DNA from: Tepidanaerobacteraceae bacterium
Lineage (GTDB): Bacteria > Bacillota > Thermosediminibacteria > Thermosediminibacterales > Tepidanaerobacteraceae
NCBI GenBank assembly: GCA_024655905.1
Contig: JANLFP010000002.1
Coordinates: 1 to 64,000 of the forward strand
Length of the DNA: 64,000 nucleotides
Reading direction: 5' to 3'
This document shows, piece after piece, positions 37,379-63,322 of this stretch (position 1 is its first letter; every line of letters begins with the position of its first letter). A model generated the notes under the pieces. It was not told where the DNA came from. It was given only the letters and a program-made list of their open reading frames with translations, and did no database searches. A program made the position numbers and the translations under genes.

Positions 37379-37705
37379 ATGGTAGGTATGATAATTAGAT
37401 TTATAGTTTCAGCGCTGGTTTTGATGCTTGTAAGCTTCATACTGCCCGGTTTCAAAGTGGCGGGATTTACGGGAGCCCTGATTGCGGCTATTGTCATTGC
37501 CATACTGGGTTTCATTGTCGAAAGTCTTTTGGGAAACAAGATTTCCCCCCAGAACCGTGGAATAGTAGGTTTTATCACGGCGGCTGTGGTAATATATTTT
37601 GCCCAATTTCTGGTTCCCGCCATGAACGTCACATGGTGGGGAGCTCTGCTGGCTTCCCTGGTGATTGGCATAATCGATGCCTTTGTGCCTACCGAGCTTC
37701 GATAA
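37379..37705 (+). CDS. YvlD/phage-holin-4-type membrane protein
   Basis: This 108-residue protein has four hydrophobic segments and the PF04020-like pattern MIIRFIVSALVLMLVSFILPGF, then FIVESLLG, then FLVPAMNVTWWGALLASLVIGI. The family includes B. subtilis YvlD; its role is unknown, perhaps in envelope stress. It has GGAGGTG upstream. It ends only 14 bases before the gpr frame, so the two are probably co-transcribed. Confidence 0.82.
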   Translation: MVGMIIRFIVSALVLMLVSFILPGFKVAGFTGALIAAIVIAILGFIVESLLGNKISPQNRGIVGFITAAVVIYFAQFLVPAMNVTWWGALLASLVIGIIDAFVPTELR

Positions 37706-37718
37706 GGAGGGATAAATT

Positions 37719-38693
37719 ATAGAGAAAAACATTCGCACCGATCTTGCTATAGAAGCAAGAGAGCTGACGGGTGGCGGGGAACTTGCAGGGGTGCAGGTGG
37801 AAACGGAAAAATCTGATGAAATGACCATAAGCAGGGTAAGGATAGAAAATGAAGCCGGTGCCGAAGCCATGGGAAAGCCGATAGGATATTATGTAACGCT
37901 GGAAGTGCCCCGCCTTAAAGAAAGAGATCCTGTACTTGCGGAAGAAGTCAGCAAAAACATGGCTGAGGAACTGAAAAATATGATAGAACTGCCGGAGGAT
38001 GCCACAATACTGGTTATAGGTTTGGGCAACTGGAATGTAACGCCGGATTCACTTGGTCCGAAAGTCATCAGCAGGTTAATTATCACCAGGCATCTTATGG
38101 AAATGATGCCTGACAAATATAGTACGAAGAATGGCATCAGGCCTATCTGCGCTCTGGCTCCGGGAGTTCTTGGAATAACAGGCATAGAGACCGGTGAGAT
38201 TATCAGGGGTCTGGTGGAAAAGATAAGACCAAAGCTGATAATAGCCATTGATGCGCTTGCAGCCAGGAGCATGGAGCGCATAAGCACCACAATACAGATA
38301 TCCGATACCGGAGTATACCCGGGGTCTGGCATAGGCAATCGCCGTATGGGCATTACTGAAGAAACGATGGGTGTTAAAATAGTGGCGATAGGGGTGCCGA
38401 CTGTAGTGGATGCTGCCACAATGGCAAATGATACGTTGGACATGCTTATAGGTCAGTTCACGCGACAGGCCCGGCCCGGCAGTGAATTTTACAGGATGCT
38501 GCAGGAGCTTGATAAAGAAGAGAAATACAGACTTATTCACGAAGTGCTTTCTCCTTTCGTGGGACAGCTGGTAGTAACGCCGAAAGAGATAGATTCCTTA
38601 ATAGACAACACTGCCAGAACGCTCGCTGGAGGTTTGAACCTGGCTCTTCATCCGGGAATCAGCTATGAGGAGGTGAGCACTTTTCTTCAATAA
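37719..38693 (+). CDS. gpr: Germination protease (SASP-degrading), non-canonical start
   Basis: This 324-residue endopeptidase degrades small acid-soluble spore proteins during germination. The conserved N-terminus IRTDLAIEARELTG is present, followed by ILVIGLGNWNVTPDSLGPKV, PGVLGITGIETGEII, IIAIDALAARS and DTGVYPGSGIGNRR. In this frame the first ATG/GTG/TTG is a GTG at 37791, which would delete the conserved N-terminus and lies 80 bases from the only Shine-Dalgarno (AGGAGGG, 37706-37712). The codon at the proper distance is ATA at 37719 (or ATT at 37716); a TAA at 37713 blocks anything further upstream. Confidence 0.92.
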   Translation: MEKNIRTDLAIEARELTGGGELAGVQVETEKSDEMTISRVRIENEAGAEAMGKPIGYYVTLEVPRLKERDPVLAEEVSKNMAEELKNMIELPEDATILVIGLGNWNVTPDSLGPKVISRLIITRHLMEMMPDKYSTKNGIRPICALAPGVLGITGIETGEIIRGLVEKIRPKLIIAIDALAARSMERISTTIQISDTGVYPGSGIGNRRMGITEETMGVKIVAIGVPTVVDAATMANDTLDMLIGQFTRQARPGSEFYRMLQELDKEEKYRLIHEVLSPFVGQLVVTPKEIDSLIDNTARTLAGGLNLALHPGISYEEVSTFLQ

Positions 38694-44523: not shown

Positions 44524-44572
44524 ATAATATGAAGCACTAAGAATTAATTTGAAGCACTAAGAGCGGATTGCG

Positions 44573-44598
44573 AACCCCGACCTGCGGGCGGGGTTTTC
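44573..44598 (+). terminator. Attenuator-like hairpin between hrcA and the chaperonin gene
   Basis: AACCCC (44573-44578) pairs with GGGGTT (44590-44595), followed by TTC TT. With a weak T run it probably causes only partial termination or mRNA stabilisation. A 12-base direct repeat, GAAGCACTAAGA, occurs twice just upstream (44531 and 44551). Confidence 0.55.
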
Positions 44599-44633
44599 TT
44601 CCGCAGCAGCAAAACATTAAGGAGGTTTTGATT

Positions 44634-46220
44634 TTGACGTTTAAGAACAACAACGCCCAGGAAGTTGACGAAAAACTGGCAGCTCTCATTACAAACTCAA
44701 ATGCCATAAGAGCCGTAGCTTCAGCCGTTGAAGGCACAATAGGGCCCAAAGGACTGGATATAATGCTGGTTGACAGGTTCGGAGAAGTTACCATCACAAA
44801 TGACGGAGTCACAATATTGAAGCAGATGGACGTAAACCATCCCGCTGCCAAAATGCTAATCAACATTGCAAAAGCTCAGCAAGAGGAAGTAGGTGACGGC
44901 ACAACCACAGCCACTATAATGGCGGGAACCATGGTTTCGGAAGGCGTAAACCAGATTTTGAAAGGTGTTCCTGTGGCGAGGGTTATAGAAGGTATAAAAT
45001 TCGGAGTGAATAAAGCTCAGGAAATTCTCAGCGCAAACATTATTCCCGTAAAGGACATAAACGACCCCGCACTGAAGAGTGTAGCCCTGATAGCCGGGCG
45101 GGAGCATGAGGATATAGCTGAGCTTGTTACCAAAGCTGCAAAACTTATCGGAGAGGAAAAGCTGAAAGAAAAGAATTTCAAATTGAAAGACATCGTAATG
45201 TCCCGGGCGGGGGCAGAGAATGAAGTCTTCATGGGCATAATAATAGATAAGGAGAAAATGAATAAGCAGATGCCCGGCGAAATCAACGATGTGAGGATAC
45301 TTTTAGTGGACGACGCACTGGAACCCGAAGAGATAGCTCCGGAGGCCCTTAGGACTGAAGCCGGGTTTGCCCGTCATCTTGAACTCAAGCAGGAATTTGC
45401 GGAGAACATTAAGAAAATAATAGATTTGAACATTAATCTCATTCTTGTGGATAAGAATGTAAGCGACGAAGCCGAGGAACTCCTGACGGATGCCGGTGTA
45501 ATTGTAATTGAAAGGGTGTCGCGAAAAGATCTGGAAAGGGTGTCGGAACATACGGGCGCCAGGATAATAAAGCGCATGGGCCTTAAAAAACCGGCACAGG
45601 AGATACAAAACTACATAGGCCGTGCCGACAGGGTGTATGAAGATGAGAAGCTGGAACAGATAAGGATAGTGGGGGGCAAGGGCAAACCGATAGCCACCAT
45701 TCTGGTGGGTGCGGCAACTGAGGAAATAGTGGGGGAGAGAGAACGCATAGCAAAAGACGCCGCATCATCCTTGCAAGCCGCCGTGCTTTTCGGAATGGTT
45801 CCGGGCGGAGGAGCCGTGGAAATGGCAGTTTCCAGGGAACTTGAAAGAGAAAAGGAAAAGATGAAGAGCATGGCCTCATATGGTGTGGAATGCGTATGTA
45901 CCGCACTGAAAAGACCGCTGGCACAGATAGTGTATAATGCCGGATTCAACCCGCTGGAAAAGATGGAGGAAGTGAGCTTTTCCCAGGCCGAGAAAAACAG
46001 ATCATCCATCGGAATCAACTGTGAAAGCGGAGAAGTTGCGGACATGGTGGAACTGGGAGTGCTAGATCCCGCACTGGTAAAGCTGCATGCCATCAAGGCT
46101 GCGGGTGAAGTAGCCGAAGCCATACTCAGGATAGATACGATAATCAAGAAAAGAGATGAATCAAATCCGGGCAAACCCGGAGCGGACACAACTGGTGGAT
46201 TGGGGGATATGGACTTTTAA
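44634..46220 (+). CDS. Group II (archaeal thermosome-type) chaperonin
   Basis: This is a 528-residue ATP-dependent folding chamber subunit. It is not GroEL: it has the group II pattern [54 protein letters not shown], a long apical insertion (the built-in lid) around residues 220-300, VVPGGGA-like [12 protein letters not shown], and a Gly-rich GGLGDMDF tail. It therefore needs no GroES. It starts at TTG (44634) with GGAGG 8 bases upstream; the long frame from 44568 begins inside the hairpin. It sits between hrcA and grpE under CIRCE control. Confidence 0.95.
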
Positions 46221-61770: not shown

Positions 61771-61799
61771 TTAACATTTAAATGTAGTATATATATAAT
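61771..61799 (+). promoter_or_regulatory. Promoter of the ccpN-like/ppsR/ppdK operon
   Basis: TTAACA (61771-61776), 17 bases and TATAAT (61794-61799) lie about 50 bases before the Shine-Dalgarno of the regulator gene. A GTGTACAC palindrome at about 61808-61815 could be an operator. Confidence 0.75.
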
Positions 61800-61849
61800 T
61801 GTTTTTTGTGTACACTAATTATGGCAGCAGGGGAAAGGAGTGAGGTTCG

Positions 61850-62482
61850 ATAGAATTAACGCCCAGACAGGCAAAAATAGTGGAAATAGTAAAAAGAAAC
61901 GAGCCCATAACCAGCGAGCAGATAGCCGAAATGCTGCATTTGACCAGGGCTGCATTAAGACCGGACCTTTCTATTTTGACCATGTCGGGCATTTTGGATG
62001 CGCGGCCCAGAGTGGGGTATTTTTTTTCGGGCAAGACTGCAAGAAATATAATCTCCGAGAAAATAAACAAAATAAAAGTGGACGAAATAAAAGCCGTGCC
62101 AAAGGTGGTAAAAGAAGAATCCTCGGTTTACGACGCTATTGTTACACTGTTTCTGGGAGATGTGGGAACATTGTTTGTGGTGCAGGATGACGGCAGCCTG
62201 GCAGGTCTTGTTTCCCGCAAGGATTTGCTGAAAATAGCCATAGGCAATGCAGATATTCACAAAATACCGGTGGGCGTTATCATGACCAGGATGCCGAACC
62301 TTGTGACCGTAACGCCGGAAGAAAGCGCCTATGATGCGGCTCGAAAGATAGTTGACCATCAGGTGGACGCCCTCCCGGTGGTAAAGATAGAAAAAGAAGG
62401 GGACAAGGTTAAATACAAGTTGGTGGGAAAGGTTACAAAAACGACTATAACAAAATTGTTTGCAGAACTGGGAAAGGCTTAG
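61850..62482 (+). CDS. CcpN-type transcriptional regulator with CBS domains, non-canonical start
   Basis: This 210-residue protein has an HTH (LTPRQAKIVEIVKRNEPI, SEQIAEMLHLTRAALRPDL), the family stretch ILTMSGILDARPRVGYFF, and two CBS domains (SVYDAIVTLFLGDVGTLFVV and AYDAARKIVDHQVDALPVV) for adenine-nucleotide sensing. It is related to CcpN, the repressor of gluconeogenic genes in Bacillus. The first standard start (GTG 61880) removes the first HTH helix and is 35 bases from the AAAGGAGTGAGG site. ATA at 61850 is at the right distance, and a TGA at 61841 blocks anything upstream. Confidence 0.9.
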   Translation: MELTPRQAKIVEIVKRNEPITSEQIAEMLHLTRAALRPDLSILTMSGILDARPRVGYFFSGKTARNIISEKINKIKVDEIKAVPKVVKEESSVYDAIVTLFLGDVGTLFVVQDDGSLAGLVSRKDLLKIAIGNADIHKIPVGVIMTRMPNLVTVTPEESAYDAARKIVDHQVDALPVVKIEKEGDKVKYKLVGKVTKTTITKLFAELGKA

Positions 62483-62500
62483 GAAAGGGAGGGATCAACA

Positions 62501-63322
62501 ATAATAGATAAAGACAACACTCCGGTAGTGTTTGCAGTTTCCGATTCCATCGGCGAAACTGCCGAGCTTGTCACACGGGCTGCCATGATTCAATTCAATT
62601 CCGGCCATGTGGAGATCAGGAGAATCCCCTATGTGACCGATGAGGAATATGCCAGAGAAGTCATTGAAGAGGCCCGGGAAGTGCCCAACTGCGCCATAGT
62701 GTGCACAATAATTCTGCCTGAGGTCAGACGGCGAATCATAGAACTTGCCCGGGAAAACAATATACATATAGTGGACTTAATGGGGCCAATGATGGATGTT
62801 CTTTCGAAGATAACGGATCTTTCGCCCCGGCTGGAACCCGGGCTGGTACACAGGATAGACGAGGATTATTTTAGAAAAATGGAAGCCATAGAATTTGCAG
62901 TGCAGTACGATGATGGAAAAGACCCAAGAGGCCTGTCGCGGGCTGATGTGGTGTTGATAGGCGTATCCAGAACATCAAAAACACCGCTTGCTCTTTATCT
63001 CGCCCACAAGAGGCTGAAAGTGGCCAATCTGCCCCTGGTGCCGGAAGTAGCACCTCCCGATGAGCTGTTCGAACTGCCGCCCCGCTCGATTATCGGTCTA
63101 ACCATAACACCCGAAAAGCTCCACGAAATCCGCCGGGAAAGGCTCAAAGCCCTGGGCCTGAGCTCGGATGCCAGCTATGCAAGCCCCGAGCGCATACATA
63201 AAGAACTGGAATATGCCGAAAGCGTGATGAAAAAAATCGGCTGCCCAAGAATTGATGTTTCAAATAAAGCAGTTGAGGAAATAGCCACGAGAATACTTGA
63301 AATTATAAGGAAAGGAGAATAA
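62501..63322 (+). CDS. ppsR: PPDK regulatory protein (kinase/pyrophosphorylase), non-canonical start
   Basis: This is a protein of about 273 residues (DUF299/PSRP family). It has [18 protein letters not shown], then [12 protein letters not shown] and the P-loop [15 protein letters not shown], and [18 protein letters not shown]. It both inactivates pyruvate phosphate dikinase by ADP-dependent threonine phosphorylation and reactivates it. The target gene follows. The only Shine-Dalgarno, GGGAGGG (62487-62493), is followed at 7 and 10 bases by ATA ATA; the first standard start is GTG 62528, 34 bases away and inside the first beta strand. Confidence 0.92.

Follow-up and report, generated by a model that had tools for sequence, protein, structure and literature searches.

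In Escherichia coli, translation of infC, the gene for initiation factor 3 (IF3), begins at an AUU codon behind a strong Shine-Dalgarno sequence (SD), an arrangement that is held weak for discrimination by IF3 and through which the factor regulates its own synthesis. In Bacillus subtilis, CcpN acts as a repressor of gapB and pckA when sugar is available, and to our knowledge this repression is known for B. subtilis only. Weak initiation and CcpN come together in Staphylococcus aureus, where Kohl et al. (2026; PMC13009471) combined Ribo-Ret with luciferase fusions to map initiating ribosomes to an AUA codon of ccpN. Relative to AUG, initiation at this codon was about 10% when the medium was poor and rose to as much as 30% when it was rich, and the authors, who describe the non-canonical start and an extended SD pairing as conserved in B. 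subtilis, propose that weak initiation links the CcpN level to nutrition, possibly via one-carbon metabolism (PMC13009471). Ribosome profiling in S. aureus also revealed weak AUH starts (i.e. AUA, AUU or AUC) at cvfC1 (AUU) and citZ (AUA) (PMC13009471). However, the citZ AUA is conserved in one laboratory lineage only and the cvfC1 start in staphylococci only, whereas the AUH start of ccpN spans the phylum, as we describe in the following.

The gene studied here is the ccpN of a Tepidanaerobacteraceae bacterium, located in a stretch of 64,000 nucleotides to which we refer as the window. It is the same gene as in S. aureus, with the same AUA codon and, in both cases, a strong SD; while the S. 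aureus start was mapped experimentally (PMC13009471), the one in the window is placed by comparison only, and we put the probability that translation of ccpN starts at AUA 61850 at about 0.93. The gene likewise resembles E. coli infC in combining an AUH start with a strong SD, but its product is not IF3, so that any effect of IF3 would be a readout without a feedback loop. The AUA start of ccpN itself is already known from S. aureus. As far as we have searched the literature, the phylum-wide reach of its AUH codon, the paired AUH start of the neighboring gene ppsR and, within this order, an AUH start at gpr are new: the S. aureus study does not report ppsR and gpr, the ccpN conservation that it describes extends from S. 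aureus to B. subtilis (PMC13009471), and we found no earlier report of an AUH start at ppsR in the literature searched. The ccpN locus comprises the following features:

61771..61799, forward strand: probable sigma-A promoter of ccpN, TTAACA-17-TATAAT, with an 11/12 match to the consensus and a predicted leader of about 45 nt
61833..61840, forward strand: Shine-Dalgarno sequence of ccpN, GAAAGGAG, an 8-nt match with an aligned spacing of 8 to the ATA, kept in orthologs
61841..61843, forward strand: in-frame TGA upstream of ccpN, which bars upstream extension
61850..61852, forward strand: ATA, the proposed start codon of ccpN and position 1 of the CcpN model; ATA, ATC, ATT or NTG in 138 of 139 orthologs
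61850..62482, forward strand: ccpN, encoding HTH_11 and two CBS domains, 210 aa, TAG stop (NCBIfam NF053704, Pfam HTH_11 and CBS)
61880..61882, forward strand: GTG, the first standard start downstream, rejected as start; residue 11, cuts predicted helix 1, no ortholog starts there

The ccpN product reaches 320 bits with NF053704, the equivalog model for CcpN, above the curated cut-off of 260, and covers model positions 1-207 of 208, with the ATA codon at position 1 and GTG 61880 at position 11. Pfam places HTH_11 at residues 6-57 and the CBS match in two stretches, and the solved CBS part of YqzB (3fv6) matches residues 60-208. Its identity as CcpN is thus supported by the model score, by the N-terminal HTH with two CBS domains and by the linkage to ppsR described below. 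The reading frame opens with ATA after AAAGGAGTGAGG (61834-61845), just as the original prediction had described for positions 61830-61890 (GGT TCG ATA GAA): from TGA 61841 it reads GGT TCG ATA GAA TTA ACG CCC AGA CAG GCA AAA ATA GTG and then stays open to TAG 62480-62482, and 9 bases lie between AAAGGAG (61834-61840) and the ATA. Upstream extension is indeed blocked, as only GGT and TCG stand between the in-frame TGA (61841-61843) and the ATA; the window offers no NTG alternative upstream, and downstream no NTG is in frame before GTG 61880. Since the AUH codon sits at a conserved N-terminus behind a strong SD, and the upstream sequence offers no NTG that could be used, ccpN is counted here among the AUH-start genes.

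Since the exact pattern of the 16S 3' end was not found in the draft genome, the anti-SD was assumed to be standard. At the putative promoter, an A/T-rich stretch with TATATATA is retained in the closest relatives, and a search of the leader with Rfam (E up to 0.1) found no known RNA element. The leader also contains a 10-codon upstream ORF (window 61821-61853), which runs from ATG 61821 (ATG GCA GCA ... CGA TAG) to a TAG at 61851-61853 that overlaps the ccpN ATA; it has no SD, is absent from the closest relatives and was rejected as a translated frame.

For comparison, we collected the start regions of 139 ccpN orthologs from the same phylum, which represent about 65 GTDB families plus named records, among them Alkaliphilus, Alicyclobacillus, Peribacillus, Sporosarcina, Paenibacillus and Desulforudis. 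The codon that matches the ATA of the window is ATA in 38 cases, ATC in 38, ATT in 24, ATG in 17, TTG in 14, GTG in seven and GCT in one, where ATG comes directly after the GCT; this amounts to 100 ATH, 38 NTG and one other codon. Among orthologs of the same class, it is ATA, ATT or ATC in 26 of 26. Thus, 138 of the 139 codons are AUN or NUG, which the initiator tRNA can read with one mismatch or none, while CTN, GTH or TTA were found at this position in none of the 139. Because the matching codon is initiator-readable in all but one ortholog and CTN and GTH are absent, we take it to be the start codon. An internal isoleucine codon should behave differently, showing either valine and leucine codons, as the freely varying hydrophobic position 11 does (ATH 40, NTG 30, other V/L codons 68), or a near-fixed isoleucine, as at the internal positions 10, 13 and 20, which are nearly always ATH. 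Together with the precedent in S. aureus, this distribution bears out the AUA start that had been proposed from the window. By these comparisons, the AUH start of ccpN is widely conserved across the phylum, as AUA, AUU or AUC.

Of the 100 ATH orthologs, 38, including the window, lack any in-frame NTG on the way from the upstream stop to the ATH codon, and in 26 of the 100 the upstream stop is at most three codons away. In 48 of the 100, the SD contains or adjoins a GTG that is in frame at -3 or -4 (as in GGTGGTGA); this GTG could serve as the start in those orthologs, not in the window, and is probably what gene finders annotate there. ATG or GTG stands immediately before the ATH codon in three of the 100. 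A gene finder that accepts no starts other than ATG, GTG and TTG will shorten ccpN or choose the GTG inside the SD, and for this reason N-termini of the ccpN family are likely misannotated in many genomes.

Two more genes of the window come with an ATA behind an SD:

62484..62493, forward strand: Shine-Dalgarno sequence of ppsR, AAAGGGAGGG, as read from the sequence
62501..63322, forward strand: ppsR (PPDK/PEP synthase regulatory kinase-phosphorylase), with a probable ATA start at 62501 and a second ATA at 62504 (NF003742, Kinase-PPPase, orthologs)
37704-37711, forward strand: Shine-Dalgarno sequence of gpr, AAGGAGGG, as read from the sequence
37719..38693, forward strand: gpr (germination protease), ATA start, at a separate locus (TIGR01441, 412 bits)

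The gene ppsR lies directly downstream of ccpN in the window and is linked to it in 129 of the 139 orthologous loci. Its product scores 322 bits against NCBIfam NF003742 (cut-off 225) and matches Pfam Kinase-PPPase, and, going upstream, its frame is first closed by the ccpN stop codon. Judging from its start region, ppsR probably begins at AUA too, by the same device as ccpN. A spacing-based call for the 129 loci gave AUH in 54, NTG in 50, neither in nine and no SD in 16, where single calls are less certain than those for ccpN, as the N-terminus varies in length and an ATG lies just upstream in a few of the 54. Applied to the next gene, ppdK, as a control (n=48), the same call gave NTG in 37, AUH in one (TTG by eye), neither in nine and no SD in one, so that ppsR and its control differ strongly in spite of the less certain single calls. 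AUH occurs at both ccpN and ppsR in 43 loci, at ccpN only in 31, at ppsR only in 11 and at neither in 18, which gives too few independent pairs for a test. The likeness to gpr that had been pointed out for ccpN also holds, with AAGGAGGG followed by ATA at 37719, and most genomes of the order have an AUH codon at the same spacing (e.g. ATC in L210 and ATT in L207), with TTG in one, L211. Finally, infC of this genome starts with ATT after GGAGGTGAAT, and AUH is found in nearly all relatives read, as expected from IF3 autoregulation; this start fits an active IF3 check, but is no proof for ccpN.

Could CcpN instead begin at GTG 61880, as a protein of 200 aa, with the conserved bases upstream being leader? 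GTG 61880 is a standard start, and an NTG-limited automatic caller would list it. However, no SD match precedes it, and residues 2-10 are conserved as protein (R6, Q7 and I10 do not vary among the 22 sequences aligned), so that the product would be deprived of ten conserved residues. It would join the CcpN model only at position 11, and HTH_11 only at its position 7, and it would, as originally predicted, have a truncated first HTH helix: helix 1 is predicted at residues 5-17 (AlphaFold model on 22 orthologs, mean pLDDT 88), and since the GTG is residue 11, half of it would be lost. Orthologs starting at the position of GTG 61880 had been named beforehand, along with an ATG in corrected sequence, as evidence that would speak against the AUA; none of the 139 begins there, and we regard the GTG start as highly improbable. 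The ATA might also be a base-calling or assembly error for ATG, which is just one base away, but the genome from the same genus, the family members next in relatedness and the majority of the remaining genomes of the order, assembled independently, have ATA here too, while others have ATT or ATC. As the closest relatives share the same ATA, such an error is very unlikely, indeed close to negligible.

Two other readings accept the AUA as real. Three AUA-start genes within one 64-kb window might suggest that decoding has changed in this lineage, with AUA as a general start codon. To this, we can oppose a scan of 1.47 Mb of the genome, read in stretches, which recorded the codons at SD spacing for 1193 scored ORFs, with no start codon presumed. 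No NTG codon having an SD of at least 5 nt was present in 258 of them; in ORFs without a well-placed NTG, the codon at SD spacing was ATT in seven (2.4 expected) and ATA in six (2.8 expected). After inspection, four solid AUH starts were retained among the 1193 ORFs, namely gpr 37719, ccpN 61850, ppsR 62501 and infC (contig C4, 46363, ATT). AUH starts are rare in this genome and confined to particular genes, and their small number argues for gene-specific attenuation, which may be sensed via IF3, and not for a changed code. Furthermore, the genome encodes a normal tRNA with an initiator-type anticodon stem-loop and a CAT anticodon, and in other ccpN orthologs AUU and AUC are equally in use, which makes a general AUA start scarcely credible. 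The remaining reading holds that the AUA is a tolerated product of drift with no regulatory meaning. On a maximum-likelihood tree of the ccpN proteins minus residue 1, the codon class changes from ATH to NTG or back at least 13 times, always within the initiator set, and there are at least 33 third-position changes within ATN, 24 of them within ATH and nine between ATH and ATG. The nine changes that involve ATG speak for drift, and the use of NTG in several lineages implies that the weak codon can be dispensed with; by themselves, the tree counts (24 versus nine) do not prove strong selection against AUG. Yet a single mutation would give AUG, and NTG is what normal genes nearly always have, while about 70% of the ccpN orthologs, across about 65 families, have kept AUH, and in S. 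aureus the AUA reporter is 3-10 times weaker than AUG, depending on the medium (PMC13009471). To judge from this retention, selection for the weak codon is likely, and pure drift appears unlikely.

At AUA 61850, the preferred start, the codon would be read by the ordinary fMet initiator tRNA (anticodon CAU) with one mismatch, and the strong SD at the right distance would make up for the poor codon. By analogy with S. aureus ccpN, we infer that initiation is reduced in the window as well, and the weak start codon may serve to keep CcpN, a repressor of gluconeogenesis, scarce. CcpN synthesis might further depend on the stringency of IF3, or on the supply of initiator tRNA and formyl donor, if what applies to infC can be carried over. 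The neighboring ppsR, which controls pyruvate phosphate dikinase, probably employs the same weak-start device. The presence of AUH in about 70% of the ccpN orthologs suggests that a start 3-10 times weaker than AUG, as in S. aureus, can persist as a control element, and its occurrence at both ppsR and ccpN points to a shared logic at the PEP-pyruvate node. More tentatively, and in our view with less than even odds, the AUH starts could form a small translational regulon across the phylum, consisting of infC, ccpN and ppsR, plus gpr in spore formers of the order, in which the stringency of start selection would couple the translation state to the glycolysis/gluconeogenesis switch at this node; the stringency factors would then be IF3, the formyl donor and the supply of initiator tRNA.

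Outside these genes, we noted further unusual starts. In nrdR (contig C22, 286309-286317; L254), GGGGGTGAT is followed by ATT ACG AAG TGC, and 22 readable relatives have ATG or GTG in place of the ACG, which leaves either an ATT start, an ACG start or a base error. A 2-dehydro-3-deoxygalactonokinase-like gene (L319, contig C2, 84861; L320) follows the stop of its neighbor and has AAAGGAGGGGTAATTT and then ACG, with no in-frame NTG; the same ACG is found in a 99% identical copy from another genus, and a 53% identical relative with two internal stops (L321) has ATT ACG at this place. Lastly, the translation of window 44568-46220, which adjoins grpE, dnaK and dnaJ of this bacterial genome, was recognized by eye as resembling a group II (archaeal-type, thermosome-like) chaperonin.
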